From Lancefieldella sp. Marseille-Q7238 (GTDB lineage: Bacteria > Actinomycetota > Coriobacteriia > Coriobacteriales > Atopobiaceae), in assembly GCF_949152215.1 (NCBI RefSeq), contig NZ_OX424407.1:1306530-1370529 (forward strand): 64,000 nucleotides of DNA, given 5' to 3'. This document shows positions 25,122 to 45,459 of the stretch, one piece after another. The position numbers and the translations under genes are program-made. Every line of letters begins with the position of its first letter. Positions within the stretch are counted from its first letter, which is position 1. The notes beneath the pieces are model-generated. The model had not been told where the DNA came from, searched no databases, and saw nothing but the letters and a program-made list of their open reading frames with translations.

Positions 25122-25136
25122 GCTACCCCCTCATAT

Positions 25137-25194: not shown

Positions 25195-25292
25195 CCAGTG
25201 AGAAGGACTCGGATTTCAAAGCACGTACTTCTCGCCGTTTGTTCAGGTAGACGTCCCTTATGGGACTGGTAATTTCAACGAGAGGATTGACT

Positions 25293-26495: not shown

Positions 26496-26510
26496 AGTTT
26501 GAAACTTTCA

Positions 26511-26559
26511 GGGACCTGTGCTGAGACCTCTGGCTTCAGAACAGGTCCCTTTTGTTTTT
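26511..26559 (+). terminator. Rho-independent terminator between ygeW and carbamate kinase genes
   Basis: GGGACCTGT (26511-26519) pairs with ACAGGTCCC (26541-26549) and is followed by TTTTGTTTTT. The 21-base loop is long, so partial read-through into the kinase gene is likely. Confidence 0.8.
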
Positions 26560-26663
26560 ACCGGGCGAGAAGAGCGTCCTCCCGAGTCGTTTCTCGCCAC
26601 AAACCGACAGGGTTCTGCAGCGTCAGCTGCATACAGATGGACAGGTACCTTTTGGAGGGGACT

Positions 26664-27605: not shown

Positions 27606-27723
27606 CGGGTAGCATAGGAGTTAGCTTGCGTTAATTTTTGCGTGAAGGTTTTAATGGCACGGAGCGATTTGTCTTATAGCTGACGTCTCTTTGCGCCTCA
27701 TAGGAATGAAAGGAGGTCATACT

Positions 27724-28389
27724 GTGACACGTATCGGGTGCATAGTCATGGCCTCCGGTGCGTCTCGGCGCTTTGGCTCGAACAAGCTTATGGCAGAGCT
27801 GGACGGTAAACCCCTTATCCGGCACGTCATTGAAACGGCTTTGGCTGCGGGTTTGGAGCCTATTGTAGTTACCGTTGACGACGCGTTTCACGCACCGGTA
27901 ATCGCGCTCTGCCGGCAGCTGCGCGTGCGTGTTGCTACACATGACGGTATGTTGCAAAGCGATACTGTCCGTCGCGGGATGCAGGAGGCAGACGTTGATG
28001 CGGCAGCTGGAAAACCGTGGTCGGGAGCGGTGTTTCTTCAGGGCGACCAGCCGCTTGTGAGCACTGCAAGTCTGAAGGCACTTCTCGCCAGCTTTGAGGC
28101 GCGCCCGGATATGGTTTCGCGTCTGGCATGGCACAAGACACCAGGAAGCCCCGTGGTATTTCCCGCTGTCTTGTTCGATGCCTTGCGCAAGGTCGCAGGA
28201 AATGCGGGAGGCTCGGGCGTGTTTGCAGAACATCCGGAGTATAAGGCGTCAGCCGTGCTTGTTGAGGCGGCGTGCGCTGAAGAGCTCATGGACGTTGATA
28301 CTCCTCTGGAGCTCGAGCGCCTTGCGCGGGCGATACGAATATCGGCATCTATAAGCGGTTTAACGACCGAGAGATTGGGAGTTGACTGA
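27724..28389 (+). CDS. MobA/MocA-like nucleotidyltransferase for molybdenum cofactor
   Basis: 221 residues from GTG 27724, 7 bases after AAAGGAGG. It carries the nucleotide-binding MASGASRRFGSNKL near residue 8, an aspartate in LQGDQPLVS near 105 and SPVVFP near 140. MocA-type enzymes add CMP (or GMP) to molybdopterin; the YgfJ member of this family lies in the E. coli selenium/purine cluster and serves the selenium-dependent hydroxylase. Its stop overlaps the hyuA start by one base. Confidence 0.85.
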   Translation: MTRIGCIVMASGASRRFGSNKLMAELDGKPLIRHVIETALAAGLEPIVVTVDDAFHAPVIALCRQLRVRVATHDGMLQSDTVRRGMQEADVDAAAGKPWSGAVFLQGDQPLVSTASLKALLASFEARPDMVSRLAWHKTPGSPVVFPAVLFDALRKVAGNAGGSGVFAEHPEYKASAVLVEAACAEELMDVDTPLELERLARAIRISASISGLTTERLGVD

Positions 28390-29744: not shown

Positions 29745-29759
29745 AGGGCGGCATGACGC

Positions 29760-30200
29760 ATGATGATTCGTACGATGAGCATAGATGACTATGACGCAGT
29801 ATATGACCTTTGGATGTCTTGTAAAAACATGGGCTTCAATAACCTGGACGACTCCCGGAAGGGGATAGAGCGCTTTTTGCTCCGGAATCCGACCACCGTT
29901 TTTGTAGCGGAAGAGACTGGGGTTCTTAAAGGCGTTGTCCTTGCAGGTCATGATGGGCGAAGAGGCTACATTTATCATATGGCCGTTGCCAAGGCATACC
30001 GGCGGCAGGGGATTGCAGCGGAGTTATTGGAACATACGCTCAAGGCTCTGGAGAAGGAAGGTATATACAAAGTGGCTCTGCTCGTCTTTAACCGCAATGA
30101 GGTTGGCAATGCCTTTTGGGAAAAGCAGGGATTTACTGTTAGGGAAGATATCACCTACAGAAACAAGGCTCTTGCGGAGTTCATCAGGACTGATACTTGA
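29760..30200 (+). CDS. GNAT-family N-acetyltransferase
   Basis: 146 residues from ATG 29760 or 29763. The acetyl-CoA motif A is YHMAVAKAYRRQGIAAELL near residues 75-93, followed by ALLVFNRNEVGNAFWEKQGF, a standard motif B. Substrate unknown. It lies 15 bases after hyuA and before ridA, so it may belong to the purine arm and act on an amine intermediate, but this is only positional. Confidence 0.85.
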   Translation: MMIRTMSIDDYDAVYDLWMSCKNMGFNNLDDSRKGIERFLLRNPTTVFVAEETGVLKGVVLAGHDGRRGYIYHMAVAKAYRRQGIAAELLEHTLKALEKEGIYKVALLVFNRNEVGNAFWEKQGFTVREDITYRNKALAEFIRTDT

Positions 30201-30329
30201 GACAAGTGCAGGGGAGAACGATCCAAGGTGGCAATCCGAAGCAGTGATGTGGATCGCCGCATGGGATACAGTAGAGTTTGTACGTTGCCTAGACGCAGAC
30301 CGCGTTTGGGCTGAAAGAAGGAGAATTTT

Positions 30330-30710
30330 ATGGCAAAGAAAGCAATCGTTACCGACAAGGCACCTGCAGCAGTTGGACCTTATTCTGCAGCCATTTCTGC
30401 AAACGGATCCATTAACGTATCTGGTCAGCTTCCGGTTGACCCCGCAACTGGTGAGTTCGCCGGTGAGGACATTAAGGTCCAGACTCGCCAGAGCCTTACC
30501 AACATTCAAAACATCCTTGAGGCAGCCGGTGCTTCCATGGCTGACGTTGTTGAGACTACGGTTTTGCTTTCCGACATCAACGAGTTTGGCGCCATGAACG
30601 AGGTCTATGCCGAGTTCTTTGCTGAGCCCTATCCTGCACGCGCAGCATTCCAGGTAGTTGCTCTTCCAAAGGGCGCTAAAGTCGAGATCAAGGCCGTTGC
30701 CCGTATTTAG
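30330..30710 (+). CDS. ridA: RidA-family enamine/imine deaminase
   Basis: 126 residues from ATG 30330 (GAAGGAG upstream). VGPYSAAI, NVSGQLPVDP, and the active-site Arg in YPARAAFQV near residue 105 with the closing KVEIKAVA match active RidA. It hydrolyses 2-aminoacrylate and similar enamines, protecting PLP enzymes. The diaminopropionate ammonia-lyase at 22270 makes 2-aminoacrylate, giving it a clear local job. It ends the purine arm. Confidence 0.93.
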   Translation: MAKKAIVTDKAPAAVGPYSAAISANGSINVSGQLPVDPATGEFAGEDIKVQTRQSLTNIQNILEAAGASMADVVETTVLLSDINEFGAMNEVYAEFFAEPYPARAAFQVVALPKGAKVEIKAVARI

Positions 30711-30743
30711 GTTTGCGTTTCTATATCCGAACAATAGGGGATT

Positions 30744-30779
30744 TTTGGAGCGGGTTTCAGTGAGAAATTCCGCTCCAAA
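30744..30779. repeat. 10-bp inverted repeat after ridA
   Basis: TTTGGAGCGG (30744-30753) and CCGCTCCAAA (30770-30779) pair over a 16-base loop. No T-tract follows on either strand, so it may be a transcript-end hairpin rather than an intrinsic terminator. Confidence 0.5.
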
Positions 30780-30848
30780 GCTTATTCAAGGTTTTAGCCT
30801 GTTGAGCTCGAGCAACGCACGAAACATAAAGCCACCCGCTGGAACAGT

Positions 30849-30908
30849 GCTGCCAGAAATGCGCCAAGTTGGTGTCCGAGTTACCATACTTGGCGCATTT
30901 CCGGCAGC
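30849..30908. repeat. 60-base near-perfect hairpin
   Basis: The arms 30849-30869 and 30888-30908 are complementary over 21 bases with one mismatch, and the first and last bases of the loop (TGGT/ACCA) extend the stem. This is far longer than a usual terminator and lacks a T-tract. It could be a REP/MITE-like unit or a structured RNA. Confidence 0.7.
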
Positions 30909-30917
30909 TCTAGGCGG

Positions 30918-31011
30918 TATAATCGTGCTCGTAAGGTCTTCTCGCTTTACTTGCCGTGATCGTTGAAATTGCGTATCAACAGCTGTCTGCAAATCCGCAG
31001 GCAGTTTTTTT
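30918..31011 (+). ncRNA. Candidate small RNA of about 80 bases with own promoter and terminator
   Basis: A perfect TATAAT (30918-30923) is followed about 60 bases later by an intrinsic terminator: CTGTCTGC (30983-30990) pairs with GCAGGCAG (30997-31004), then seven T. No open reading frame of note lies between. The -35 element is unclear (TTGGCG at 30890 is 22 bases away). Not recognised as a known RNA family. Confidence 0.45.
30983..31011 (+). terminator. Strong intrinsic terminator
   Basis: An 8-bp stem with a 6-base loop and a TTTTTTT tail. It ends the candidate small RNA or any read-through from ridA. Confidence 0.85.
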
Positions 31012-31061
31012 GCTTTCGTGGTGGTTTTCTCGTAGCGTAGACAATTGGTACCAAATTGGAT

Positions 31062-31121
31062 GTTTAGTGGTGATTTGATTCACCACTAAACGCTCAAATT
31101 CCGGAAAAACCACCACTAAAC
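31062..31121. repeat. Three copies of GTTTAGTGGTG, two forming a perfect palindrome
   Basis: GTTTAGTGGTG at 31062-31072 is matched by its reverse complement at 31081-31091 (8-base spacer) and again at 31111-31121. Just before and after lie GTGGTTTTC and AAAACCACC, so the motif family is slightly larger. It lies in the gene-free stretch 30711-31187 before the accessory region and may be an operator cluster or a mobile repeat end. Confidence 0.7.
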
Positions 31122-31187
31122 CCGTCAAATGGGTCGTGTCCCGAAAAATGGTGTAAGAGAAGCACCCCAGTTTTGGCAAGTCCTTGT

Positions 31188-31556
31188 CTAGCTATCTCTT
31201 TCTTGATGTTGTATGTATTTGCATGCTTCAGAGCGGATCCATTTCTTACCAAATATGAATGCTATTAAGAGCGGAAAAACCAAAAGAGGTAGCACCAGGA
31301 TAGAACCGAACAGAGCCAGTCCTTTGTAGGTATGATTGCCTTCTGCAAATCCATTAACCGTATCCGCCAGCCAGAGAAACAGCGCTCCATCATTAATTTG
31401 AAATAGCGCAACGCACTCAATACCCAGCAAAAGGGAAAATATCAATGCTATTCTCAAGGATGCTTTCTTGGATATTTCTACTTTCTTTTCAAGGTTAATC
31501 GCTTTTGATTCCGGGATATCGCGGAACCATTTCTCTGCTCTTTCTTCTGGTGTCAT
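31188..31556 (-). CDS. Small membrane protein of unknown function
   Basis: 122 residues. The N-terminal 30 residues are polar and charged (RAEKWFRDIPESKAI); three hydrophobic segments follow at about 35-53, 58-70 and 80-103, and the C-terminus is basic. No family recognised. It stands alone on the minus strand at the edge of the accessory region. Confidence 0.55.
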   Translation of the reverse strand: MTPEERAEKWFRDIPESKAINLEKKVEISKKASLRIALIFSLLLGIECVALFQINDGALFLWLADTVNGFAEGNHTYKGLALFGSILVLPLLVFPLLIAFIFGKKWIRSEACKYIQHQERDS

Positions 31557-31619
31557 GTGCTGCTCCTGTTAATTTGCAGTACCTTTCATTGGCTTGATTA
31601 TAGAGTATATAGTCAGGTT

Positions 31620-32162
31620 TTAGCGCAATCTTTCCCATTCTTGCCTTGTTATGCAGGTAATATGTTCTGTTCTCAGTAACCCTTCGATTGCACAGGGAAC
31701 GTTATTTGTTGTGTGATGATAGGTAAAACCACATTTTTCTTGGGCTCGCTTAGACTTGTTGTTCCCGTCAAAATATCCGCACCAGAGTCGTTGGAGTCCC
31801 AAGTCTTCAAATCCATGTTGCATTATTTTACGAGTGGCTTCGGGAATGAGCCCTTGTCCCCAAAAAGGCACTCCTATCCAATAGCCAATTTCTCCCTCGG
31901 TATCAGAGATTCCAATATTGCTGGCAGATCCAATCATAAGTCCAATGCTACCGATCGGATGGCTGAGTTCTTTTAAAACTACCGCATACGTTTCTGGTGC
32001 AGAGAGTATGTTTTCGATTATCTCGCAACTGTTTTCGACACTGGTATGAGGACTCCATCCTGCAATGGGTCCAACGTCAGGATGACTGGCATATTGGAAT
32101 AAGTATTCTGCATCAGTCAATTCCCATGGACGAAGTATAAGCCGTTCTGTTTCAAAAATCAC
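31620..32162 (-). CDS. RimJ/RimL-type GNAT acetyltransferase
   Basis: 180 residues. It begins MIFETERLILRPWELTD, the usual start of RimJ-like acetyltransferases, has YWIGVPFWGQGLIPEAT as the acetyl-CoA motif near residue 95, and NNKSKRAQEKCGF as motif B. Members acetylate protein N termini, antibiotics or small amines. A decayed second copy of its first 95 residues lies at 37095-37379 in the same orientation, so the gene has been duplicated across the accessory region. Confidence 0.88.
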   Translation of the reverse strand: MIFETERLILRPWELTDAEYLFQYASHPDVGPIAGWSPHTSVENSCEIIENILSAPETYAVVLKELSHPIGSIGLMIGSASNIGISDTEGEIGYWIGVPFWGQGLIPEATRKIMQHGFEDLGLQRLWCGYFDGNNKSKRAQEKCGFTYHHTTNNVPCAIEGLLRTEHITCITRQEWERLR

Positions 32163-32392
32163 ACTGCGTCCTTAATTTTTCGGATGCCTCACCTTATCGG
32201 ATTTCTGACTATAACATTTTTGCTAGGGATATAGTGATGGGTATTCAATACAGCGTAAGGTTCTTAAAGAATTTAATGACCACTAGCTGATATTTTTAAG
32301 CCATTGACAGAATTGTCTGGTAATTGAAAATCAAATCATGGAATAATCTGAATAGCTATCCTTTTGTAATTTTATGGTTATGGGAGGTTAGT

Positions 32393-33073
32393 ATGGGAAA
32401 GCGAGTCCGCAGGCTGTCCGTCTTCCTTTTGGTGGCGGTGGCCGCCCTGTCCGTCCAAGTGGGCCTCCTCTGCCGCGTCTGCAAGGCCTCCGAGCCGAGC
32501 GAGGAGGTGGTCGCACGTATAAAGAAATTCTTTTCGATAATAGATGACGACGGGAAGGAGTTCCTGTTCCCTGAGGACGCTGCAAACCTCGACCTCAGCG
32601 ACATCACTGTCGGCAATGGGTACAAGAGGTACCGACTTGAGGGCGAGAGGCTTGAGGACTCCAACCTTGTCAACTACCCTATCTTCTCCGGAGGAAGGCC
32701 CTTTGCCATCTGTATCACCAAGTACAACGATAGCGGGGTGGAGGAGGTCGTCCAGGCAGGCTCGATCAGAAGCGAGCCCTACTACGGCGAGGACATCGAC
32801 TACTCGGACGTGACCATCGTCGTCGAGATGCGCAAAAGGCGCAGCTTCTACCTCATCTCGGGCCCGTACATCTGGCACTACGAGGGTGGGGCCCTCGTGT
32901 CAAAGGGGGAGACGGGCAGGGTCGGGCACGAGGACAGCAGGGAGGAGGTGCTGGCCCTGCTGGCCTCGCAGGGGGCCGAGATACGCCCCGACACGCTCAC
33001 CGAGCGCCTCCACGAGTTTGCCAGAGCTTGTTACTTTGAGCTTACAGAGGAGGACTGCGGGTCTTGTATATGA
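32393..33073 (+). CDS. Secreted free-standing copy of the protease N-terminal domain
   Basis: 226 residues from ATG 32393 (TGGGAGG upstream). A signal peptide (residues 1-30) precedes a domain that is clearly paralogous to residues 30-200 of the next gene product: FFSIIDDDGKEFLF, VGNGYKRYRLE, and PYIWHYEGGALVSKG align with FSLIDDDGMEFLF, VGRSYRFLRLE and IFVWHYENGTLVSK. The catalytic and repeat domains of the neighbour are missing. The base composition is markedly GC-rich compared with all neighbours. Function unknown; a role as partner or inhibitor of the protease is speculation. Confidence 0.65.
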   Translation: MGKRVRRLSVFLLVAVAALSVQVGLLCRVCKASEPSEEVVARIKKFFSIIDDDGKEFLFPEDAANLDLSDITVGNGYKRYRLEGERLEDSNLVNYPIFSGGRPFAICITKYNDSGVEEVVQAGSIRSEPYYGEDIDYSDVTIVVEMRKRRSFYLISGPYIWHYEGGALVSKGETGRVGHEDSREEVLALLASQGAEIRPDTLTERLHEFARACYFELTEEDCGSCI

Positions 33074-33121
33074 GATGACATCAAACCTTCTATCTTTGTC
33101 CAAGTCTTGGGAGGGGTTGTC

Positions 33122-35143
33122 ATGTTTAGAAAACTATCCAAAATCGCTTTCATCCTCATAGTAATAATTGTGATTTTTTCTGGTAAACAAGTTAAGACAG
33201 CCAATGCCTTGGAACTGCAGTCATATCCAAGCAAGAAGACGGTAGAGCATATATCCAAGTTGTTCTCCCTGATCGACGATGATGGAATGGAGTTTCTCTT
33301 CCATAAGCAAAAGGTAGATATTTCCGATGTCAGTGAGGTACAGGTCGGAAGAAGTTATAGGTTCCTCAGACTTGAGAATGATCATCTTTCCGACGTTGGA
33401 ATTGTCAAGTACCCCCTCTACCTCAACGGAAATGTTTTCGCCGTCTACACGGAATATTACGATGGGGAGACTCGGGGGTCTACCGCAATCTCGTCGATTA
33501 TCGATGAGTATTACTACGATGACGACCTTGACTACGCTGATATAGCCGTTGTTGCTGATGGTAAGGACAGCTATGTCGTCTCAGGAATCTTCGTTTGGCA
33601 TTACGAAAATGGAACACTCGTGTCGAAGATAAGGCGAGATGGGATTACCGACGCGAGGGAACGACAAATCGTCTCGTTGGTCGAGGAGGAGAGTGGACAG
33701 TATAGCTATGCTGGGAAGTCAAGTCCAGTCTCGCTCAATAACGTTACATCGAAAAACGTAAGAAGTCGTGTGATTAAGACGATCGACGTGTCGGTCGTTC
33801 CACAATACCAGTCTCCAACATGTTGAGCTGCTGCCATTTGTGCGGTAGGAAACTATATGACTGGACCATCAAACTGGACGCCCGATTCCCTTTCGATACA
33901 GGTTAAGGGGGAGATTACTGGAGGGTTTACAGAGGATTATATCAAGGGGCTGTTACTGTTTACATATCCTGGTTCTAATCAACAAATCTCCTCTACTAGC
34001 CTAGAGTATTCTCCAAGTGATGAAGAAATTGTAAACTGGATCGATCACAACACCCCCTTTATCCTAAGGCTGAAGGGTGGTTCAGAAGGGCATGCGATAA
34101 CAGCATGTGGGTATGTCTTCGAGACGGGTGTGTCAGCTGTTTATGCACAGGATTCAGCAAGTGGAAAACGTGAGATATTGCATAAAGATGATGAAGGAAG
34201 ATTTGGATACACATTTTGTGATAATGAAACTTATTTCTATTGGGAAAGAACAATTGTTCTTACGGGATGGCAAAAACCAGGCAACGGTGACAAATGGGTG
34301 TACTTCGACCGACATGGAAACTATGCGACAGGGTGGTTCGGTTTCGAAGATGAAACATACTACTTTTCCGAGTCAGGAGAGATGCAGACCGGTTGGGTTA
34401 AAATCAACGGTCTTTGGTTTTACTTCTCCATATCAGGAAAAATGCAGACAGGATAGGTTTCCGTCGATGGATATTGGTATTACCTCGACGATTCAGGCCG
34501 CCTCCTTCATTCCCAGTGGCTTTCATATAAGGGGGATTATTACTACCTGGACAGTAGTGGCAAGATGCGGACAGGGTGGCTTGTCTACAACGGTACATAC
34601 TATTACTTGGGTTCGGACGGGGTCATGCGGACGGGTTGGGTCAAGGATGGGGGTAATTGGTATTACATGAACTCCGACGGCTCTATACGGGTCGGATGGC
34701 TTGTAAAAGACGGCAGTTATTATTACCTTGACAGTAACGGAAGAATGAAAACAGGATGGTATCGCATTTCGGGAGACTGGCACTTCTTTAACTCTGATGG
34801 AACAATGGCTACCGGTTGGCTGGAGCGAGGAGGCTCTTGGTATTACTTAAGCTCAAGCGGAATAATGCAAACGGGATGGCTCAATAGTTCCGGTCATACC
34901 TTCTACCTTAACCAAGACGGCTCAATGCACACCGGATGGCTTTACTATGGCGGGAATAACTATTACCTGCGTTATGACAACAATAGACCAGTCTCAGGTG
35001 GTCCTACGGGTTCTATGATCTACTCACGAAAGGCTCGGATTGGAGGGGTCACCTACGAGTTTAATGCAAGAGGTGAGGCGTATAAGGCACTTCCGGGAAA
35101 CATTGTTCCTAAAGCATATAAGCCAATAGTTGAGGCTGCGTGA
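33122..35143 (+). pseudogene. Secreted papain-like (C39-type) protease with cell-wall-binding repeats, broken by two in-frame stops
   Basis: One continuous frame of 673 codons from ATG 33122 (GGGAGGGG upstream) is interrupted only by TGA at 33824 (codon 235) and TAG at 34454 (codon 445). The first stop directly follows the likely catalytic Cys: QSPTC-stop-AAA replaces the CWAA motif of C39-like peptidases. The catalytic His is in EGHAITACGY (codon 324). The second stop sits in MQTG-stop-VSVDG, where the other repeats have GW. From codon 375 there are about eleven 20-residue YYLDSSGKMRTGW-type repeats that bind choline or wall polymers. Both stops replace Trp. Confidence 0.8.
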
Positions 35144-35784
35144 TGATTATGAACAAGAAATGTAAATGGCTACCTCTAAAGATTATCCCCATAGTTCTGC
35201 TCCTTATAGCCACTGTCTTCCTCTTGTGGAATGCATTTGCTACGCCCTACCCATGGGCAATTGACTCGCTTCAGCAAAAAGCGGTAGAGCAGGCCACACA
35301 AGAAGCTATCAATACCGCCAGGCAAGAAGGAGACGGCGGAAAGCCTTACCTCAAAGACATCGACTATATGAAGCTCACGCTTGGCAGTTGCTATATAGGA
35401 GTAAAACCAAAAACCCGGAACAACCTTATTTGGGAGATTCGATATAGAGATAAACCTGTGGGATATGTCATGCAAGATCTCGGAACTTTAAGGTTCTCCG
35501 CTCTTGCCGGCAATTACGAGTCCTTCAAACTCGTGGATTTAGAAGAAGTTTCTCTTGACGACTACAAGGAAGTAAGAGACGGCTCTGTAGAACTTGGACC
35601 TTTTGAATGGAAACTTCCCTTCGGTTGGGTAACGGTCGATGGATGTAAAGCGTACCGACAAATCAACGGCTACCTTTTTTCACATGGGCTAGCAATAGTT
35701 GATGACTACTATTATGAGTTCGATGAGAATGGATATCTCATAAAAGCGATAGGCCCGGCACTGGATTCAGAAACCGAAAATTAA
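35143..35784 (+). CDS. Membrane-anchored extracytoplasmic protein of unknown function
   Basis: 213 residues from ATG 35143, which overlaps the TGA of the protease gene (TGATG); ATG 35149 is also possible. An N-terminal helix (about residues 10-32) is followed by a soluble domain with LGSCYIGVKPKTRNNLIWEIRY and YYYEFDENGYLIKAIGPA. No family recognised. The coupling to the wall-binding protease suggests a shared surface function. Confidence 0.6.
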   Translation: MIMNKKCKWLPLKIIPIVLLLIATVFLLWNAFATPYPWAIDSLQQKAVEQATQEAINTARQEGDGGKPYLKDIDYMKLTLGSCYIGVKPKTRNNLIWEIRYRDKPVGYVMQDLGTLRFSALAGNYESFKLVDLEEVSLDDYKEVRDGSVELGPFEWKLPFGWVTVDGCKAYRQINGYLFSHGLAIVDDYYYEFDENGYLIKAIGPALDSETEN

Positions 35785-35888
35785 GTGATCCCGCAACAGT
35801 TCTATATGTTGTTCACAATCATTCCGGATACGTAACGTAGAATCTGGATACTTTCGGATATCCGTGTGGATGAGTTGCGTCAATTGAG

Positions 35889-36719
35889 TTACTTAAACGC
35901 AATAGTATGCGGACTCATATAAAGCGAGCAAGAAGAAATCTGTAGTGCAGGAAGCTCAGGTAAACGTGCAAGGTTACATCCTGACCCCACATACGCAATA
36001 AGAATCAACACAAGGCCAATTGCGATAAAAATGCCACCGAACAGCGAGAGCAGTCTTTTCGAATGTCCTTCTGACCATGGCGTTGTATTTGTTCTCCCCG
36101 TGGAGACATCGTTCTTCTCGGCAGGAACTTGTGCAAAGAAATGAGCAATCCACTTTGCATAGTCTCGTGCGCCTTGTACAAGAGAATGCATTATGCGTGC
36201 TACTATCGGTATTACCAGTATTGAAACACCTCCTATGAGCAGAAACACACCGGCAGAAAGTGCACCGGAAAGGAACATGTCGTGCAGAAATCCCACTACA
36301 AGTGCCGGGATGCTCATTACTCCGCAGAAAAGACCACAGGCAACTGCAAAGCATAATGAAATAACAAGTGCCCAAATCGCAAAATAAATACTCAATGCCG
36401 TAAGTGCGAGGACAAACGTAAGGGGTATCCAGACAATGGCGCCTATCACGAGAAGCACGATAGTTATGGACATAAGTACCGAATCAGAGCGGATACGCTG
36501 AGTTGCACGTAGAAACACAGGCATACTCTCCAGTGCCGATTGAACCGCATCATCAATGCTTCCCATGGCTGCTACGGCTTTTTCCTCGGACATACCATCT
36601 TCCATGCGGTCGCGTATTGCCTCATCGTAATAGGCAAGAGCATCATCAATGCTGATTTTGGGAACATGCTTTTTCTTAAGGTTTGCGCGAAGTTCGGCAA
36701 GAAACTCATCTTTTTTCAT
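35889..36719 (-). CDS. HAAS-domain (DUF1700) membrane protein
   Basis: 276 residues. The N-terminal 70 residues, MKKDEFLAELRANL...YYDEAIRDRMEDGMSEEKAVAAMGS, are the HAAS signalling domain, followed by five to six hydrophobic segments. HAAS proteins are usually coupled to PadR regulators and sense or transmit envelope or membrane stress. Its ATG overlaps the padR stop by four bases, so the two are a unit. The C-terminal half of about 40 residues after the last helix is unusual in being Cys/Pro-rich. Confidence 0.85.
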   Translation of the reverse strand: MKKDEFLAELRANLKKKHVPKISIDDALAYYDEAIRDRMEDGMSEEKAVAAMGSIDDAVQSALESMPVFLRATQRIRSDSVLMSITIVLLVIGAIVWIPLTFVLALTALSIYFAIWALVISLCFAVACGLFCGVMSIPALVVGFLHDMFLSGALSAGVFLLIGGVSILVIPIVARIMHSLVQGARDYAKWIAHFFAQVPAEKNDVSTGRTNTTPWSEGHSKRLLSLFGGIFIAIGLVLILIAYVGSGCNLARLPELPALQISSCSLYMSPHTIAFK

Positions 36720-37030
36720 GACGATGCTCCTTCTTTAATGTAGGAGAGAATGTCTGTAATGGAGGCCTCATCGGCGATAAATCGTGAGAGCTCTAAGCGT
36801 CCTGTGTCAGTAATCGAATAATATTTGCGGAAACGACCGTTGTGCTCACGTGTGTATTCGGAAAGGAAATGTTGTTTAGCAAGACGTTTCAAAATGGGAT
36901 AGAGCGTTGACTCGGAAAGCTCAAGTGACGCAGGGGCATCCCTGATGATTTGATACCCGTAGGAATCTTTGCGGGCTATGGCTGCGAGGACGCATATGTC
37001 AAGAAATCCACGCTTCAGCTGTGCATCCAC
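36716..37030 (-). CDS. PadR-family transcriptional regulator
   Basis: 104 residues from GTG 37030 (GGAG 7 bases upstream). The winged-helix motif LKRGFLDICVLAAIARKDSYGYQI and ESTLYPILKRL is typical of PadR, with a short C-terminal helix. It is expected to repress its own promoter; a palindrome matching the PadR ATACT-N-AGTAT type lies immediately upstream. Its partner is the HAAS membrane protein. Confidence 0.92.
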   Translation of the reverse strand: MDAQLKRGFLDICVLAAIARKDSYGYQIIRDAPASLELSESTLYPILKRLAKQHFLSEYTREHNGRFRKYYSITDTGRLELSRFIADEASITDILSYIKEGASS

Positions 37031-37044
37031 AATACGTCTCCTTC

Positions 37045-37071
37045 AATATACTATGCGATACATAGTATATT
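37045..37071. promoter_or_regulatory. PadR operator palindrome
   Basis: AATATACTATG (37045-37055) and CATAGTATATT (37061-37071) form a perfect 11-bp inverted repeat with a 5-base spacer, just upstream of padR. A further CATACTATG half-site is at 37079-37087. Autoregulation is the usual pattern. Confidence 0.75.
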
Positions 37072-37094
37072 ACTCAGGCATACTATGCAATACA

Positions 37095-37379
37095 AAAATA
37101 GCCGATCTCGCCCTCGTCGTCAGGAATACCGATGTTGCTGGTGGATCATGCCCTGAGTCCGATGCTCCCGACCGGATGACCAAGCTTTTTCAAAACGACT
37201 GCGTAAGATTCGGACACAGAAAGTACGCTTTGGATTATCTCGCGACTGTTTTCAATGCTGGTATGAACGCTCCACTCCGCGATGAGACCAACGTCAGGAT
37301 GGCTGGCATATTGGAAGAGACTTTCATCGTCAGCCGTCTCCCACGGTCACAGTATAAGCAGCTCTGTCTCAAGAACCAT
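37095..37379 (-). pseudogene. Truncated, decayed copy of the RimJ/RimL-type acetyltransferase gene
   Basis: Read on the minus strand from ATG 37379, the frame gives MVLETELLIL, stop, PWETADDESLFQYASHPDVG, then SIENSREIIQSVLSVSESYAVVLKKL and SNIGIPDDEGEIGY. This aligns without gaps to residues 1-95 of the protein encoded at 31620-32162. Two in-frame stops are present, and the copy ends where homology breaks at about 37095, just before the PadR operator. Confidence 0.85.
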
Positions 37380-37525
37380 GAGATGCTCCAAAGTCTAAGG
37401 ATCTTCATAGATGCGGTGATGAAGTTTCTCACTATACCATCTTCTACTGGAAGAATTGGTGGAAGTGCTGATACAATACTAAAACTCACTCGGAAAGATG
37501 TGGGTACGAACACTTAGAGAGCACG

Positions 37526-37621
37526 ATGGCAAAGAAACAAAAGGGTCCGAAAAGATTGGCGAATCCCAAACAGCTGAATAAGGATTATTTCAAATCCTTT
37601 ATCACCACCCGTGCAACTTAG
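37526..37621 (+). CDS. Possible small basic peptide next to a broken ABC gene
   Basis: 31 codons, ATG 37526 to TAG 37621. The product begins MAKKQKGPKRLANPK and ends SFITTRAT. GAGAGCACG upstream is only a weak ribosome site. It resembles neither a known leader nor a ribosomal protein. It lies just before an ABC ATPase remnant and a CPBP protease, so a bacteriocin or signal peptide precursor is conceivable, but evidence is weak. Confidence 0.25.
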   Translation: MAKKQKGPKRLANPKQLNKDYFKSFITTRAT

Positions 37622-37629
37622 TTGTGAAA

Positions 37630-38209
37630 TTGGGTCAAAAAGGATTTTTTCTAATCTATCTGTTTCTATGTATAGAGGAAGAATATATGGTGCGGTTGGA
37701 AATAATGGTAGTGGAAAGTCTACATTGATCAGCTGTTTATTAAATAGTTTTTAGAGAGGGTATAAGCGGAAAGATTTCTATTGATAGCAACCTAATAACG
37801 AACATTGATCTCTACGATTTACGGAAGCATTATTTTTTCTGTTTGTGAACAAGTTCCTGTAGTTTTTGAAAACACTCTTGAGTTCAATTTGTTCCTTGGA
37901 GAAGAGGTTGATCAAGAATCGGTTTGCCTGTTAAAAGACTTGGGTTTTGATTTGGCTAAGTATCGTCTAGTTGATCATGTGGCTAGTTCTTTATTGTCAG
38001 GAGGAGAAAAGCAAAAGATTGCAATTGCAAGGACAATGTTACGGGATAACCCCATTGAAATTTATGATGAACCTACGGTGTCACTTGATTATTCATCGAA
38101 AATGGGGTTGATTAAGTGTATCGATGAGAGAAAAGATGAGAAAATCATCATAATAATATCACATGATAAGGATATTCTGGCTATTTGCGATGAGATCATT
38201 TCACTGTAG
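37630..38209 (+). pseudogene. Decayed ABC transporter ATPase gene
   Basis: Three reading-frame segments together give an ATPase. The first holds LSVSMYRGRIYGAVGNNGSGKSTL-type Walker A and ends at TAG (37753). A second frame carries GISGKISIDSNLI and LYDLRK and ends at TGA (37848). The third, 37805-38209, has the EQVPVVFENTLEFN Q-loop region, LSGGEKQKIAIART signature, IEIYDEPTVSLD Walker B and SHDKD H-loop. At least two frameshifts are needed. The AT-rich composition differs from the host genes. No membrane subunit remains. Confidence 0.75.
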
Positions 38210-38230
38210 TTGAGCTAAGGAGAAAAATGA

Positions 38231-38863
38231 ATGAAAGAAAAGAATGGAGTATGTGAAATCCTTTTCAGCTGTCTAATTGTTCTTTCCACGGATGTTCTTG
38301 TCTCATTTATCTATAAGACACATGCAACGATATTTCAGTTCGGCTATATATACAGGCTTTTTCTTGGTGCTTTTGTATCTATTTTTCCCATATATGTGGC
38401 AGCAAAAAACTATAAGAGTATTGTCGCAAGGAGCATGAAACCTTGGTCTATAGGCATACTGATAATTACTACACTCATTCCTCTATTCTTTTCTGATGTT
38501 GATTTTGAGAGAAAAGTGTACGTTTGGATACACTATGTGTTTTTGGTCGCGCTGCCGGAAGAGCTCTTTTTTCGAGTTTATTTGCCTGAACGACTTGGCG
38601 AAGAGCTCTTGAGAAAGCAGAGATTCTCTGATATATCGCTTTATATAATCGTTTCCTTTTTAGCTAATACACTTTGGGGTTTGAGTCATATAATTTTTCC
38701 GCTTATAACCGGAGCCTATAAACTTGAACCTCTTTGGTCCTATATCACCTTTGGAATTGCTAACGGTTGGATATATACCATTTTGTTTTTCCTCTTTCGT
38801 AAGAACATTTTGCCCTCTGTAGCTGTGCATGCTGTCATGAACATATGCATCAGTACATTGTAA
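38231..38863 (+). CDS. CPBP-family intramembrane metalloprotease
   Basis: 210 residues from ATG 38231 (AGGAG upstream). It has five to six hydrophobic segments and the motifs LPEELFFRVYL (EExxxR), GLSHIIF (FxxxH-like) and HAVMN. CPBP proteases process or confer immunity to peptides in many bacteriocin loci. It follows the ABC remnant by 21 bases and shares its low GC, so it looks like part of the same decayed cassette. The frame is intact. Confidence 0.85.
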   Translation: MKEKNGVCEILFSCLIVLSTDVLVSFIYKTHATIFQFGYIYRLFLGAFVSIFPIYVAAKNYKSIVARSMKPWSIGILIITTLIPLFFSDVDFERKVYVWIHYVFLVALPEELFFRVYLPERLGEELLRKQRFSDISLYIIVSFLANTLWGLSHIIFPLITGAYKLEPLWSYITFGIANGWIYTILFFLFRKNILPSVAVHAVMNICISTL

Positions 38864-38987
38864 CTTCTCCTTTCTGGAACTACTATTATGGATTCGATAA
38901 AATGGGTACCTCATACAAGAAATCGGTTCGGTGGCGCCTCATGCAGGGAACGCAGATCGGCTCGGCATTAGACGGAGGAGACTTAAA

Positions 38988-39602
38988 TTGAGCCTGCACG
39001 AAGAAGATACCGATGTGCAAAAAGCAATGGACTCGCTTGATCACGATTTGCTGACAGGCGAGACGCTGGATGTTGGAGATAAAGTCACGCGTCGGCTCTC
39101 ACAAGAGCAAGCCACCCTGCCTCATCCCGCTGCAAAATCGTCAGGCCCCATACAGAGCAAGCAAGAAATCGCAGTGGAAGCGGTCAAGAAAACCACCAAT
39201 AACCAGCTGTTTATTGTTGCAGTAACCGCAATCGTTGCGCTTGTGGTGTGCGTGATACTCATAGCGTTTCATCCGTGGACGTCAAACCAACAGGCGCAAT
39301 CCGTACAGCCCACCCAAACCGAGACTGTCAAAAAAGAGCCGGTGAAGGTAGAGGTTCCTCTCGCCAGCAAAGACGTCTCCGAGTATGACTATGAGGAAGC
39401 TCAAAAGAAATTTGAGCATGCGGGCTTTACAAACATCACAACCAAAAAGGACGAGGACCTCAAGATTGGCCTGCTCAATCACGAGAACCAGGTCAAAGAG
39501 ATCACCATTGACGGCGATAAAAAGTTTTCGGTGGGCGAGAAGTACAACGAAGACGCGCCGGTAGTTATCACCTATCACGCATTTCCGCAAAAGTCGAATT
39601 AA
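38988..39602 (+). CDS. Membrane-anchored protein with PASTA-like C-terminal domain
   Basis: 204 residues from TTG 38988, 8 bases after GGAGGA; no better start exists. A cytoplasmic, acidic N-terminal 75 residues is followed by one helix (about residues 76-98) and an extracytoplasmic region: a Gln/Thr-rich linker, then YEEAQKKFEHAGFTNIT and VGEKYNEDAPVVITYH, which resembles a single PASTA-like fold. Function unknown. Its 3' end overlaps the end of yqeC on the other strand by 35 bases. Confidence 0.65.
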   Translation: MSLHEEDTDVQKAMDSLDHDLLTGETLDVGDKVTRRLSQEQATLPHPAAKSSGPIQSKQEIAVEAVKKTTNNQLFIVAVTAIVALVVCVILIAFHPWTSNQQAQSVQPTQTETVKKEPVKVEVPLASKDVSEYDYEEAQKKFEHAGFTNITTKKDEDLKIGLLNHENQVKEITIDGDKKFSVGEKYNEDAPVVITYHAFPQKSN

Positions 39603-40272
39603 AAAGCGAGCCCGCAACAACGGGCGTGTTGTCGCCCCGCAAACGGAGCTCCTTTGTAAAGTCTCTTGCCAGAGCGAGGTCTTTCTCGCAATCGGCTTGA
39701 TTGGCGAGAATAACGTCCGCTCGTACGGCTCCTGAAGCGTGTTCTGCTGCAATGACCATAGCAATGCGTTCCGGTGTAGCGAGATTGTCCGGCGAGCAGC
39801 CTGCGCGGTCGCAGAAAATCTCACTGCGGTGAACGGTTTGGTTGACGGGCAGTCCAAAGCCGGAAAGTCCGACGACTTGGACGGTGTGCCGGCTACCTTC
39901 GGGAATAACGGGCTCATGCGGGGCGTGAGCCTTCAGGGGTAGCCGTTTGGATCCGTCAGCTTCCACAAATACATAGTCGGCAACCGACGCCAGCTCTTGG
40001 GCGCAAAGTGCTGAGGGTCCCAATTTGTGCTTCTCGCCTGAAAAGGCTCCGACACAGATGACGCGGTGTGTTGTCAAAGCGTCTTTCACCTCGGAGAGCG
40101 TGGGGTTTTCCAAAAGAGGCATATTCGGGAACGGAAGGATGTGCGTTGACGTGGTCAAAACGACCGTTCCCCGAACTTCTTGGGAAAGTTTTGAGAGCAG
40201 TGTGGTCTTGCCTCCACTGCCGACAACTGAGGTAACTCCCGGTAAAACGCCCAGCACTTCATAACAGTTCAT
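39568..40272 (-). CDS. yqeC: Selenium-dependent hydroxylase accessory protein YqeC
   Basis: 234 residues from ATG 40272. The P-loop VVGSGGKTTLL is near residue 17, with TSTHILPF and FVEADGSKRLPLKA near 125, all typical of YqeC. The protein is linked by gene neighbourhood to selenium-dependent molybdenum hydroxylases; its reaction is unproven. It is divergent from yedF with a shared upstream region. Confidence 0.93.
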   Translation of the reverse strand: MNCYEVLGVLPGVTSVVGSGGKTTLLSKLSQEVRGTVVLTTSTHILPFPNMPLLENPTLSEVKDALTTHRVICVGAFSGEKHKLGPSALCAQELASVADYVFVEADGSKRLPLKAHAPHEPVIPEGSRHTVQVVGLSGFGLPVNQTVHRSEIFCDRAGCSPDNLATPERIAMVIAAEHASGAVRADVILANQADCEKDLALARDFTKELRLRGDNTPVVAGSLFNSTFAEMRDR

Positions 40273-40386
40273 GTGGTTGCCTAACTAAAAGTTTTTTATT
40301 AGCGATATACTTATTTTATTGCAAAAAAACATTCACATTGCCCGTTATACGTAGGTGGGATGTGCAATTTTAAGAGGGGGATTGCA

Positions 40387-40998
40387 ATGAAAATTGATGC
40401 GCGCAACCTAACGTGTCCCAAGCCGGTTATCCTGACGCTTGAAGCGTTGCCAAAACTGGCGCAGGGAGAAGCGCTTGAAGTGGTCATAAACGATACCGTT
40501 GCTCTCGGTAACCTTACGCGCTTGGCTGACGAGAAGAACTGTGAACTTACCACGGTCAAGGACGGCGAAGATACCGTCATGACCTTCACCCCTCGCGAAG
40601 CAGTTGCGGCAAGTGCGTCCGTGGCGACCGAAGCGTCTCTCTTTTGCAATATTCCCGATTGTTCCGCTACGGTTGTTGCAGTTGATGCTGAGTTTATGGG
40701 TCGCGGTGATGATGAGCTTGGGCATATTTTAATGAAAGGCCTCATCTACGCTCTTGCGCACCAAGAGAGCGTTCCTGAGACCATGCTGTTTTACAACGGC
40801 GGTGCTCATCTGACGTGCGAGGGTTCAGAGTCGCTTGAGGATATCAAAGAGCTTGAATCGCGCGGCACCAAGATTTTGACCTGTGGTACCTGCCTTGATT
40901 TTTATGGCATTAAAGACAAGCTGGCGGTGGGCGGGGTTACCAACCTCTACGCCATTGCCGAGATTATCTCAAAACAGCCGGGTGCAATGGTGCTGTAG
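40387..40998 (+). CDS. yedF: Selenium metabolism sulfurtransferase-like protein YedF
   Basis: 203 residues from ATG 40387 (GAGGGGG upstream). A TusA-like domain (residues 1-70) with the active-site motif TCPKPV near residue 9 is joined to a DsrE-like domain with TCEGSE and LTCGTCLDFY near residue 170. The family probably carries sulfur or selenium as a persulfide/perselenide between the desulfurase-like enzyme and SelD. It is 9 bases from the desulfurase-like gene. Confidence 0.93.
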   Translation: MKIDARNLTCPKPVILTLEALPKLAQGEALEVVINDTVALGNLTRLADEKNCELTTVKDGEDTVMTFTPREAVAASASVATEASLFCNIPDCSATVVAVDAEFMGRGDDELGHILMKGLIYALAHQESVPETMLFYNGGAHLTCEGSESLEDIKELESRGTKILTCGTCLDFYGIKDKLAVGGVTNLYAIAEIISKQPGAMVL

Positions 40999-41007
40999 GG
41001 CGTCTAA

Positions 41008-42201
41008 ATGATATATCTCAATTGCGCTGCCACATCTTATAAGCATCCCGCATGTGTGATTGACGCTGTTACCTGCGCTCTCAGTTCATTGGGAAGCACC
41101 GGTCGCGGCGCTGCGTCTGCCGAGCTTAACGCGGCTCGCACGGTTACAGTGGCGCGCGAACGCCTTGCTGCGCTTCTGGGGTTCTCTCATCCTGAGCGTG
41201 TGGTGTTTGCTGCAAATGCGACTGACGCGCTGAACAAGGCTCTTCTCGGCATTGTGCAGCCAGGAGATCATGTGGTTGCAACCGACTGGGATCACAACTC
41301 CGTTCTGCGTCCACTCTATCGTCTTCGCGAGAAGAGCGGCGTGCAAGTTGACTTTGTTCCCGCCGATGCGCAAGGACGCCTTGACTGGGATGCTTTTGAG
41401 CGGCTGGTAACTCCCGGCACAAAACTTGTGGTGGTAACACATGCTTCCAACCTCACCGGCAACGTCTGCGATCTTACGCGAGCGGCTGCCATTGCGCATG
41501 CAGCCGGCGCGTTGCTACTGGTAGACGCTGCGCAGACGGCAGGATCTTTCCGGATTGATTTCGATGACCTTGGTCTTGATTTGTTAGCATTTACCGGGCA
41601 CAAAGCGCTGATGGGGCCGCAGGGGACAGGCGGCCTTTTGGTGGCTCCGTCCGTTGAGGTGGAAGCCGTCTTCCAGGGCGGCACCGGGGTACTCTCTTTC
41701 AAGGAGGGCATGCCGGATGGCTATCCCGAACATCTTGAAGCTGGTACGCTTAATGGGCACGGCATAGCCGGTCTGTCTGCGGCAGCCGCCTTCGTAGCCG
41801 AGCTGGGAATAGACGCCATCCACACGCATGATGTGGCGCTGACTAAGCGGTTTGTGACAGGGGTTCGTACGATTTCCGGCGCAACGCTTTATGGTAGCTA
41901 TCCTGATGACCTTGCAGATCTTGACGGCTCTGAGCCAGACCGTGATCACGCTCCGGTTGTCACGCTTAATCTGGCCGGATGGACGTCATCAGAGCTTACG
42001 GGAATTTTAGACATGAAGTACGGCATTGCGGTTCGCGCGGGCGGACACTGCGCCCCGCGTATACATCGGGCGCTTGGTACGCACGAGACAGGCGCCGTGC
42101 GCTTCTCGTTTGGCTGGTATACCAAAAACGACGAAGTAGACGCAGCGCTTTTCGCCCTGAGTGAGCTTGCAAAGGAGGGGGCGTGCCATGGCGGGGCATA
42201 A
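41008..42201 (+). CDS. Cysteine desulfurase/selenocysteine lyase-like aminotransferase (class V)
   Basis: 397 residues from ATG 41008. The PLP Lys is in FTGHKALMGPQGTGG near residue 199; HASNLTGN and VDAAQTAG are cofactor regions, and the active-site Cys is in RAGGHCAPRIH near 350. The enzyme would mobilise sulfur or selenium from cysteine/selenocysteine for SelD. This class of desulfurase is associated with orphan SelD loci. It overlaps the DUF3343 gene by 14 bases. Confidence 0.9.
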   Translation: MIYLNCAATSYKHPACVIDAVTCALSSLGSTGRGAASAELNAARTVTVARERLAALLGFSHPERVVFAANATDALNKALLGIVQPGDHVVATDWDHNSVLRPLYRLREKSGVQVDFVPADAQGRLDWDAFERLVTPGTKLVVVTHASNLTGNVCDLTRAAAIAHAAGALLLVDAAQTAGSFRIDFDDLGLDLLAFTGHKALMGPQGTGGLLVAPSVEVEAVFQGGTGVLSFKEGMPDGYPEHLEAGTLNGHGIAGLSAAAAFVAELGIDAIHTHDVALTKRFVTGVRTISGATLYGSYPDDLADLDGSEPDRDHAPVVTLNLAGWTSSELTGILDMKYGIAVRAGGHCAPRIHRALGTHETGAVRFSFGWYTKNDEVDAALFALSELAKEGACHGGA

Positions 42202-42427
42202 GCGACACCTTCAGGCAGTAGTGGCGTTTGATTCCACATATGAGGCGCTTGAGTGCGAACGTGTCTGCAAGGAACGAAGCATACCCGGCCGTCTGATTCC
42301 AACGCCTGTTGCTATTAAGGCGGATTGTGGTCTGGCGTGGGCTATGCCTCCGGAGGTACGTTCGGCACTTGAGAAAGCGGCGGCTGGTAATTTTCTGCCG
42401 TCGGGTATATATGAACTTGAATTGTAA
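42188..42427 (+). CDS. DUF3343 protein (putative Se/S carrier)
   Basis: 79 residues from ATG 42188, after AAAGGAGGGGG. It starts VVAFDSTYEALECERVCKE and contains IPTPVAIKADCGLAW, matching DUF3343. The Cys residues at about positions 25, 28 and 48 could carry selenium. Family members accompany selD and yedF in the SDMH system. The biochemistry is unknown. Confidence 0.9.
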   Translation: MAGHKRHLQAVVAFDSTYEALECERVCKERSIPGRLIPTPVAIKADCGLAWAMPPEVRSALEKAAAGNFLPSGIYELEL

Positions 42428-42475
42428 TCGAACACATGCGGATGACGAATGCGCGTCCGGTTGGAGGGGACAGAC

Positions 42476-43282
42476 ATGCTGGTAGTTATCAGGGGTGCAG
42501 GTGATCTTGCATCGGGTATCGCGCTCAGGCTGCGCCGCGCGGGCTGTGATATCGTGATGCTGGACGTTTCGATCCCGACGGCCGTCCGCCGCTCTGTTGC
42601 GTTTTCTGAAGCTATCCGCCTGGGAGAAGCAACGGTCGAGGGCGTTAAGGCTGTCCGCGCGGCTGATGTGTCTGACGCGCTGCGTATTGTGAGCGAGAAG
42701 AACATTGCAGTGCTGGTAGACCCTGAAGGCGCAGGCATTTCAGAGTTTGCGCCTGATGTGCTGGTAGACGCCATTCTCGCGAAACGCAACCTGGGGACAA
42801 CCAAAGCCATGGCTCCCGTCGTAATCGGAGTGGGACCGGGGTTTAAGGCCGGCACCGATTCAAGTGCGGACTGTCATGCGGTGATTGAAACGAAGCGCGG
42901 ACATTACCTGGGAAAAGTTATTTACGATGGCACGCCCATCCCGAATACCGGCGTTCCGGGCAACATCGGTGGCTTTACCAAGGAGCGTGTGCTGTGGTCG
43001 CCGGCTGAAGGCGTCTTTGAGCCGGTGGCAAAAATCGGCGATGTCGTCAAGCGGGGAGACATCGTGGCAACGGTTTCAGGCATTCCGGTCAAAGCGACCA
43101 TTGACGGTGTTCTGCGAGGTCTTTTGCAAGAAGGCGTGCCGGTAACCAAGGGTATGAAATCGGGCGACATTGATCCTCGTTGTAAGGTAGGACATTGTTT
43201 TTCCGCATCCGATAAGGCTCGTGCGATAGGCGGAGGCGTACTTGAGGCCCTCTGTCACTTTACGGAAAGGCTGGTGGGGTAA
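42476..43282 (+). CDS. yqeB: Selenium-dependent molybdenum hydroxylase system protein YqeB
   Basis: 268 residues from ATG 42476 (GGTTGGAGGGGACAG). It has an N-terminal VVIRGAGDLASGIALRL Rossmann-like motif, a central VIGVGPGFKAGTD, and ETKRGHYLGKVIYDG. YqeB (EF2563 family) is a marker of SDMH systems; XdhC-like by fold, with no reaction known. The stop codon is immediately followed by the selD GTG. Confidence 0.93.
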   Translation: MLVVIRGAGDLASGIALRLRRAGCDIVMLDVSIPTAVRRSVAFSEAIRLGEATVEGVKAVRAADVSDALRIVSEKNIAVLVDPEGAGISEFAPDVLVDAILAKRNLGTTKAMAPVVIGVGPGFKAGTDSSADCHAVIETKRGHYLGKVIYDGTPIPNTGVPGNIGGFTKERVLWSPAEGVFEPVAKIGDVVKRGDIVATVSGIPVKATIDGVLRGLLQEGVPVTKGMKSGDIDPRCKVGHCFSASDKARAIGGGVLEALCHFTERLVG

Positions 43283-44365
43283 GTGGCTGTGGAAAACGTC
43301 AAACTAACGAAGCTTGCCGAATGCGCTGGATGCGGTGCGAAAGTTGGAGCAGGTGAGCTTGCAAAGCTCCTCTCGGATATCAAGGTGCGTCAAGATCCCA
43401 ACTTGCTGGTTGGTTTTGACAAGGCGGACGATGCGGCAGTTTATAAGGTTACCGATGATGTCGCGCTGGTGGAAACTATTGATTTCTTTCCGCCCATCGC
43501 CGATGACCCCTATGTGTACGGGGCTATTGCGGCGACAAACGCTCTCTCCGACGTATACGCTATGGGTGGTGAGCCCAAGGTAGCACTCAACGTTATGGCG
43601 GTTCCGGAAGATATGTCTTCTGAGGTGGTTCACGAGATTTTGCGCGGCGGCTATGACAAGGTGTATGAAGCCGGTGCGCTCATTGTGGGCGGTCATAGCA
43701 TTTATGACAATGAGCCCAAATACGGTCTTGCTGTCTCAGGTTTTGTGAATCCAGCCAAGATGTATACCAATTCGGGAGCGCATGCGGGCGATGTACTCAT
43801 TCTTACCAAGGCGCTTGGCGTAGGCGTGATTACCACAGCAGTAAAAGCCAATATGGCAACCGCAGAAGAGATTGATACCGCCGAGCGCTCCATGATGACG
43901 CTCAACCGGTATGCGCGCGACATTATGGTGAACTTTGACGTTCATGCCGTAACGGACGTGACGGGCTTCTCGCTTATGGGACATCTGCTTGAGATGTGTC
44001 AGGGAGCGGATTTGAGCGCGGTGATTGACGTTGATGGCCCCGAGTTTATCTCGCCCCATGTGTTTGAGCTGGCTCGTCTAGGTATTCTGCCTGCAGGTAT
44101 GTATCGCAATCGTCGGTATGCCGAGAAGTACGTGGAAGCTGAAGGAGTTTCCCGTGAAAAAGCCGATGTGCTCTTCTGTCCGGAAACCTCGGGTGGCCTG
44201 CTTATTGCCGTGGCGCCTGAGGACGCCGAGGCGCTTCTCGCCGCGCTTCGCGCGGACGGGCGCGTGCCTTCCGCCCGCGTAGTTGGACACATGACGGAAA
44301 ACGAAGGCGCCGATGCTTCACACGGCCACACGCGCATCAGGCTGATGCACGGACGGGGATGCTGA
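43283..44365 (+). CDS. selD: Selenide, water dikinase (selenophosphate synthase)
   Basis: 360 residues from GTG 43283. The N-terminal active-site loop is ECAGCGAKVG: the catalytic Cys is present as cysteine (not UGA), but the second Cys of the AGCGCK motif is Ala. FDKADDAAVY, LSDVYAMGGEP, VGGHSIYDNEPKYG and CPETSGGLL complete the fold. It makes selenophosphate from selenide and ATP. No selA or selB is here, so it is an orphan-type SelD placed in the SDMH system for labile selenium in a molybdenum enzyme. Confidence 0.95.
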   Translation: MAVENVKLTKLAECAGCGAKVGAGELAKLLSDIKVRQDPNLLVGFDKADDAAVYKVTDDVALVETIDFFPPIADDPYVYGAIAATNALSDVYAMGGEPKVALNVMAVPEDMSSEVVHEILRGGYDKVYEAGALIVGGHSIYDNEPKYGLAVSGFVNPAKMYTNSGAHAGDVLILTKALGVGVITTAVKANMATAEEIDTAERSMMTLNRYARDIMVNFDVHAVTDVTGFSLMGHLLEMCQGADLSAVIDVDGPEFISPHVFELARLGILPAGMYRNRRYAEKYVEAEGVSREKADVLFCPETSGGLLIAVAPEDAEALLAALRADGRVPSARVVGHMTENEGADASHGHTRIRLMHGRGC

Positions 44366-44424
44366 GATACGGCTTTTAAGCGCGGGTTTTCACAGAATTT
44401 TCGTAGATAAGGATAGGTAGTACC

Positions 44425-45459
44425 ATGGCTGATTCACATGAGACGCTCTGCGATGAGCATTTTGTGCGTCGTCTTCTTGCAGAGCTGGAGGCAGATCGGA
44501 GCTTTGTGCTTTCAACGCTTGTAACCACAAAGGGCTCGATGCCGCGTCATGCTGGCGCTCGCATGGTGCTTCTGCAGGACGGAACGTTTTTAGGGACCGT
44601 TGGCGGCGGTTCCATTGAACTTATGGCGCAGGAGCGCTCACGCGCCATGCTTGCCGGCGCACAGCGAAATTATATTGAGTGGATGACACATGCCAAAACA
44701 GGTATGGCCTGTGGAGGAGATGCACTTGTTGCTTCATGTGTAGTCACTCCGGATCAAAAGGACTTCTTTGCAGACCGGCTGCTTAGTCTGATTGGCGAAG
44801 GAAAACCGTTTGTCATTACGGAACAGTGGTCGAATCCCGATCATGTGATAGTTGAAGCGTTGGCCATCGATGAACTTCCGGCGGATGACCCGCGAGCTCT
44901 TTTTGATATGCCCTTGTGGGATGAGGCAACGGCGACGTATACAGAGCCGTTGGGTCCCGATCCTGTGGCGTATATTTTTGGAGGTGGACACGTAGGACAC
45001 GCATTGACGCCCGTGCTTGCCAGTGTTGGTTTTAGAGTGGTGGTCTTTGACGATCGCGAAGGAGTGGCGGTGAAGGAAGCCTTCCCCGCTGCGGAGGCGG
45101 TCTTTCTCGGTGACTTCAAGCACATTTCAGAGCATGTGCATGTGACGCGCCGCGATTACGCGGTGGTAACAACTCACGGCCACGCGTTTGACATTGACGT
45201 GCTCGAACAACTCTACCTGTGCAAACCGGCGTATGTGGGCTGTATTGGCAGCCAAAGAAAATCGGCGTTTGCCCGTAAGACGTTGGAAGAACGTGGTGTT
45301 TCTAAGGAGTGGTCCGACGCCATTTATATGCCCATCGGGGATGATATCATGGCGGTCACTCCGTCAGAGATTGCTATCTCCATTGCCGCGGAGATGATTC
45401 GCTGCCGCGCTGACCTCCGTCCGGAAAAGCCGCATCAGAAAAAACCCGCTTCGGCGTAA
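44425..45459 (+). CDS. XdhC/CoxI-family molybdenum enzyme maturation factor
   Basis: 344 residues from ATG 44425. It has an N-terminal XdhC domain (TTKGSMPRHAGARMV, GTVGGGSIE) and a C-terminal Rossmann XdhC_C domain with YIFGGGHVGHAL near residue 180 and THGHAFD, GCIGSQRK. Members insert or sulfurate/selenate Moco in xanthine dehydrogenase. It closes the SDMH maturation arm, 59 bases after selD. Confidence 0.9.
   Translation: MADSHETLCDEHFVRRLLAELEADRSFVLSTLVTTKGSMPRHAGARMVLLQDGTFLGTVGGGSIELMAQERSRAMLAGAQRNYIEWMTHAKTGMACGGDALVASCVVTPDQKDFFADRLLSLIGEGKPFVITEQWSNPDHVIVEALAIDELPADDPRALFDMPLWDEATATYTEPLGPDPVAYIFGGGHVGHALTPVLASVGFRVVVFDDREGVAVKEAFPAAEAVFLGDFKHISEHVHVTRRDYAVVTTHGHAFDIDVLEQLYLCKPAYVGCIGSQRKSAFARKTLEERGVSKEWSDAIYMPIGDDIMAVTPSEIAISIAAEMIRCRADLRPEKPHQKKPASA

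Follow-up and report, generated by a model that had tools for sequence, protein, structure and literature searches.

Does the AT-rich stretch in which a broken ABC transporter ATPase adjoins a CPBP intramembrane protease gene preserve the remains of a bacteriocin or peptide-signal cassette, and could the protease still give immunity? The first-pass annotation of the window (the whole 64-kb stretch of Lancefieldella sp. Marseille-Q7238 DNA analysed here) had raised this possibility for positions 37526-38863. Our analysis suggests that the locus is likely a horizontally acquired exporter/CPBP segment that has since worn down, leaving the protease as an orphan. The AT richness itself was confirmed, with a G+C content of 34.9% in the ABC part and 37.0% in the CPBP part against 51.0% for the window; no other 1.25 kb of the window is as AT-rich, and the 12 lowest 1.25-kb intervals listed all fall here. 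On composition, Bacillota is a plausible donor group.

Comparison with related genomes defined the extent of the segment. The single same-species genome compared, G096, lacks about 1.87 kb (37095 to about 38967). Its left flank matches window positions 23795-37094 at 98.3% and its right flank matches 39009-44542 at 98.5%, and 161 bases separate the two matches where the window has 1914. Because the last ~40 of these 1914 bases, just before 39009, still resemble G096, the end of the insert was set at about 38967. A genome of the same genus, G003, has the same empty site, with 157 bases between its flank matches, and in G001 and G002 the insert is matched by one 30-base hit each, on the ABC signature only. 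When the insert DNA was searched in 396 class genomes, with the best two candidates per genome scored, every non-self match fell in the acetyltransferase fragment or the ABC signature, apart from a 42-base match to G096 at window positions 38879-38919. The insert is a patchwork of a truncated acetyltransferase pseudogene, an ATPase remnant, a protease gene and perhaps a scrap of a neighbouring gene (Table 1). The coordinates first proposed do contain the ATPase, the protease gene and the 31-codon ORF, but they miss this larger unit and, within it, the broken acetyltransferase fragment on the minus strand. Composition favours gain in this strain over loss from G096 and G003; with one same-species genome, gain and loss are not strictly separable.

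Table 1. Features of the insert and their coordinates in the window
Feature	Coordinates	Strand	Basis
Whole strain-specific insert	37095..38967 (right end approximate)	.	Both flanks align in G096 and G003, which lack the insert
Acetyltransferase pseudogene fragment (GNAT-like by eye)	37095..37381	-	65/95 residues identical to the 31620-32162 product
31-codon ATG ORF, claimed peptide, judged a chance ORF	37526..37621	+	Shuffles; no relatives
ABC nucleotide-binding domain, pseudogene in three successive frames	37611..38209	+	Each piece matches Pfam ABC_tran; profile and structure hits are exporter-like
Predicted intact gene of 210 codons for a CPBP (Rce1-like) intramembrane protease	38231..38863	+	PF02517, 1.8e-11; conserved residues
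Possible scrap (tentative), similar to the end of gene 35140-35784	38878..38932	+	Local alignment

We looked for repeats framing the insert and found none, and no tRNA that could have been targeted lies anywhere in the 64-kb window. Promoter-like and terminator-like signals are not in excess, falling below shuffle means, and the region 34500-41000 gave only one sub-threshold IRES-like match among RNA elements. At 37048-37094, before the PadR gene, lie two near-identical 15-base repeats, ATACTATGCGATACA and ATACTATGCAATACA, which look like the operator of that gene. The insert starts directly after the second repeat, and G096 carries further CAGTATG motifs after the corresponding position, so the insertion may have cut the PadR operator region and moved the next gene, which starts at about 38988, away from the DNA that originally preceded it.

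The frameshifted ABC ATPase of the first-pass annotation was borne out. Pfam ABC_tran matches pieces in separate frames (37611-37751, 32.5 bits, profile positions 2-33; 37805-38206, 35.9 bits, positions 64-136), with frame changes near 37750 and 37838. The locus therefore has no half exporter in an open reading frame. Upstream of the ATPase, between 37381 and 37611, no frame for a membrane domain was found, and the ~230 bases that separate it from the acetyltransferase fragment are too short to hold one. A read-through translation with X at the frame changes was used as the query for profile and structure searches. It scored 100.9 bits against CydD (profile 333-529 of 529, far under the cut-off) and 98.3 bits against TIGR03608 (4-206 of 206), far below the family cut-off of 254.85; LssB (90.5 bits), MsbA (82.6 bits, 347-539 of 572) and the TIGR01193 peptide exporter (77.3 bits) fell far under theirs. 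For half exporters such as CydD and MsbA, the aligned part is the C-terminal end of the profile. The best solved structures were ABCB1 domains, and the best other match in the strain's own genome was a 43% identical, 546-codon frame whose translation reads as a half exporter. In the 395 other class genomes, with 10 candidates scored in each of those listed, nothing matched the ABC piece at E up to 1e-22. The nearest plasmid ABC protein is 39% identical, with no annotated CPBP gene beside it.

By these profiles the ATPase appears exporter-like, yet not specifically a bacteriocin exporter, and it probably formed the C-terminal domain of a half exporter that has lost its membrane part. It resembles the nucleotide-binding domain of CydD, MsbA and TIGR01193, and differs from these half exporters in having no membrane domain, in its two frame changes and in scores far under their cut-offs. 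Loss of a membrane domain is likely rather than proven, since the stand-alone TIGR03608 scores nearly as well as CydD. The likeness to that family of putative lactococcin 972-type export ATPases extends across all of its positions, whereas the score is well short of membership and no partner genes of the TIGR03608 system were recognised. The end-to-end alignment also suits a reading in which the ATPase is an intact stand-alone protein of about 199 residues, its frame changes are sequencing errors, and it forms with the CPBP protein a working two-gene unit that borrows a permease. Both frame changes sit at T runs, of five and six, which are also common sites of sequencing error and in this respect count against decay. 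We nevertheless regard this reading as very unlikely: it requires two separate errors, ahead of the Walker region the frame offers a single start, the GTG at 37611, with no visible ribosome-binding site, and the neighbouring acetyltransferase fragment has decayed too. Acquisition followed by decay is supported by the empty site in G096 and G003, the lowest G+C of the window, the stops in the acetyltransferase fragment and the spread of the ATPase over three frames. The term "remnant" was thus well chosen for a segment with a broken ATPase that is absent from a same-species genome.

The protease gene, by contrast with the ATPase, keeps an open frame and is predicted to encode an intact CPBP protease, as had been proposed. 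Its product scores 44.6 bits against PF02517 (cut-off 22.4), and E110, E111, R115, H153 and H200 are invariant in six of six aligned proteins; in this protein a W replaces the F that usually precedes the first H. The EExxxR, H and HxxxN positions are kept. It falls below the cut-off of every named NCBIfam subfamily, the nearest being the myxosortases (33.2 versus 100 bits), and a single-sequence structure model was all helical and poor (mean pLDDT 47.8). A score twice the cut-off, the catalytic positions and a helical membrane protein thus align it with the PF02517 CPBP/Rce1-like proteases, whereas its nearest relatives are only fragments 28-42% identical. For CPBP proteases, a study of the Streptococcus anginosus sil locus gives the motifs EExxxR and FxxxH (PMC9298176). 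PF02517 matched 10 times in the five genomes of the genus: this strain accounts for three, G096, G001 and G002 for two apiece, and G003 for one, and the other short PF02517 gene of this strain (L083) has no exporter adjoining it by eye.

The proposed 31-codon peptide fared less well. Its ORF lies in 37382-37610, where no gene is recognisable, and overlaps the ABC frame by 11 bases. In 319 of 1000 dinucleotide shuffles of 37379-37640 the plus strand carried an ATG ORF of 31 codons or longer, and in 521 of 1000 one or other strand did; counting both strands, 212 ATG ORFs of 31-60 codons occur in the window. Apart from the peptide itself, 296 class genomes (its own included) gave no match, nor did plasmids and phages with E values allowed up to 10, back-translated patterns in two viral-contig scans, or Pfam, NCBIfam, PADLOC, PHROGs and PDB sequences; since a query of 31 residues has low power, these absences are weak evidence. 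Elsewhere in the strain's own genome, the region 37379-37630 has only chance matches of 14-17 bases. Since the whole insert is missing from G096 and G003, these genomes offer no matching position for comparison. With an ORF size at chance level and no relative in any search, we judged the ORF to be a chance one and set aside the peptide as a real gene; the claim found neither statistical nor homology support, and the ORF is probably no part of the acquired exporter/CPBP segment.

These results bear directly on the idea of a remnant bacteriocin or peptide-signal cassette, comprising peptide, exporter and CPBP protein, in which the protease still gives immunity or processes the peptide. An exporter-like ATPase does adjoin a CPBP gene, an arrangement described as common in bacteriocin clusters, where CAAX/CPBP proteases are frequently linked to immunity (PMC9298176), and one of the two best ATPase profiles, TIGR03608, represents putative bacteriocin exporters. 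The peptide ORF, however, is at chance level and has no relatives, the exporter is not intact and all exporter profiles score far below cut-off, and neither PADLOC nor PHROGs recognises the peptide or the protease. We therefore consider a bacteriocin cassette distinctly unlikely: the exporter-like ATPase and CPBP protein of the combination stand, but its peptide is unsupported and its ATPase is not bacteriocin-specific. A peptide-cassette origin is possible for the donor, and nothing in the window shows it. The same sil study reports that SilX deletion did not sensitise the strain, a CPBP protease without an immunity role there, and proposes a role for SilX in signal peptide processing (PMC9298176). 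Like bacteriocin clusters with CPBP proteases, such as sil, the insert has transporter and CPBP genes in one neighbourhood; unlike them, it has a broken exporter, no demonstrable peptide and no two-component regulator that we could see.

We also searched for intact exporter-CPBP loci. The CPBP protein retrieved only itself from 60 genomes and from 396 phylum genomes, itself and three weak matches (28-31% identity) from 396 class genomes, and no close relative from plasmids, phages and viral contigs; the genome sets overlap. Two pattern scans of genome contigs used short patterns chosen from a two-row alignment, and one was empty while the other returned three distant proteins (32-42% identity); such scans depend on almost identical short words and would overlook relatives that have diverged, which makes a lack of matches weak evidence. 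Bacillota were covered through these two scans and the plasmids, phages and viral contigs only. The 3.5-kb locus around one weak class match (L027, with L028 and L029 set aside) showed no exporter by eye, nor did frames of at least 150 codons within about 1.5 kb at L037-L039, and six loci with distant ABC matches (L031-L036) occurred in viral contigs. No close CPBP relative with an adjoining exporter was found in the genomes, plasmids, phages and viral contigs searched, and neither an intact homologous cassette locus nor a donor locus in the class and phylum genomes or the plasmids, phages and viral contigs, the pattern scans being of low sensitivity.

The scraps at the two ends of the insert resemble genes of a nearby locus. 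The acetyltransferase fragment, named GNAT-like by eye rather than by a profile match, comprises the N-terminal 95 residues with two in-frame stops, is cut at the left junction, and matches the intact gene 31620-32162 at 73% over 282 bases of DNA. The right-hand scrap gave a local alignment score of 57 against a maximum of 42 in 300 shuffles, with a protein match of only E 0.21. The insert could be a worn second copy of the locus formed by the acetyltransferase gene, changing cargo and gene 35140-35784, having arrived with ABC/CPBP cargo. The left scrap matches the acetyltransferase and the right may match the last gene, in the same order and on the same strands, and G003 carries different cargo at 32396-35132; set against this, the right-hand match spans about 55 bases and is weak as protein. 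We hold this reading as unlikely, though not negligible, and it is compatible with, not contrary to, an acquired and decayed segment.

The cargo at 32396-35132 is found in G096 at about 98%, and in G003 it is replaced by about 700 bases encoding another secreted-looking protein; these comparisons mark the locus as variable. A cell-wall-binding-repeat protein (repeats by eye) at 33857-35143 appears split into frames 33857-34456 and 34565-35143, and is possibly another frameshifted gene. A long near-perfect inverted repeat at 30846-30911, which also matches G096 in inverted orientation, is perhaps a terminator or small repeat element. We give very little credence to a further proposal, in which an unrecorded system for peptide export, equipped with a divergent CPBP protease, left this insert as its worn copy. 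Its carrier would be a locus that swaps cargo between an acetyltransferase gene on one side and a gene for a membrane or surface protein on the other, and the orphan protease would be kept because it still shields the cell from what the system produces.

We favour, then, an exporter/CPBP segment that was acquired horizontally and has decayed. AT-rich foreign DNA would have entered the interval that separates the PadR regulator gene from the next one and then worn down, leaving the ATPase-bearing end of an ABC transporter and, after it, an intact CPBP gene, together with fragments of resident-type genes. The donor's exporter may have moved a peptide or another substrate, with the protease processing that substrate or acting beside the exporter. 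An export machine could not form from the insert, so the protease, whose activity is predicted from its sequence, would be either silent or acting alone on a membrane substrate.

The peptide-cassette reading rests on a chance-level ORF, which calls for caution. The insert would illustrate how foreign DNA decays at a variable site of the chromosome, and its CPBP protease, if expressed, would be an orphan candidate for immunity or processing.
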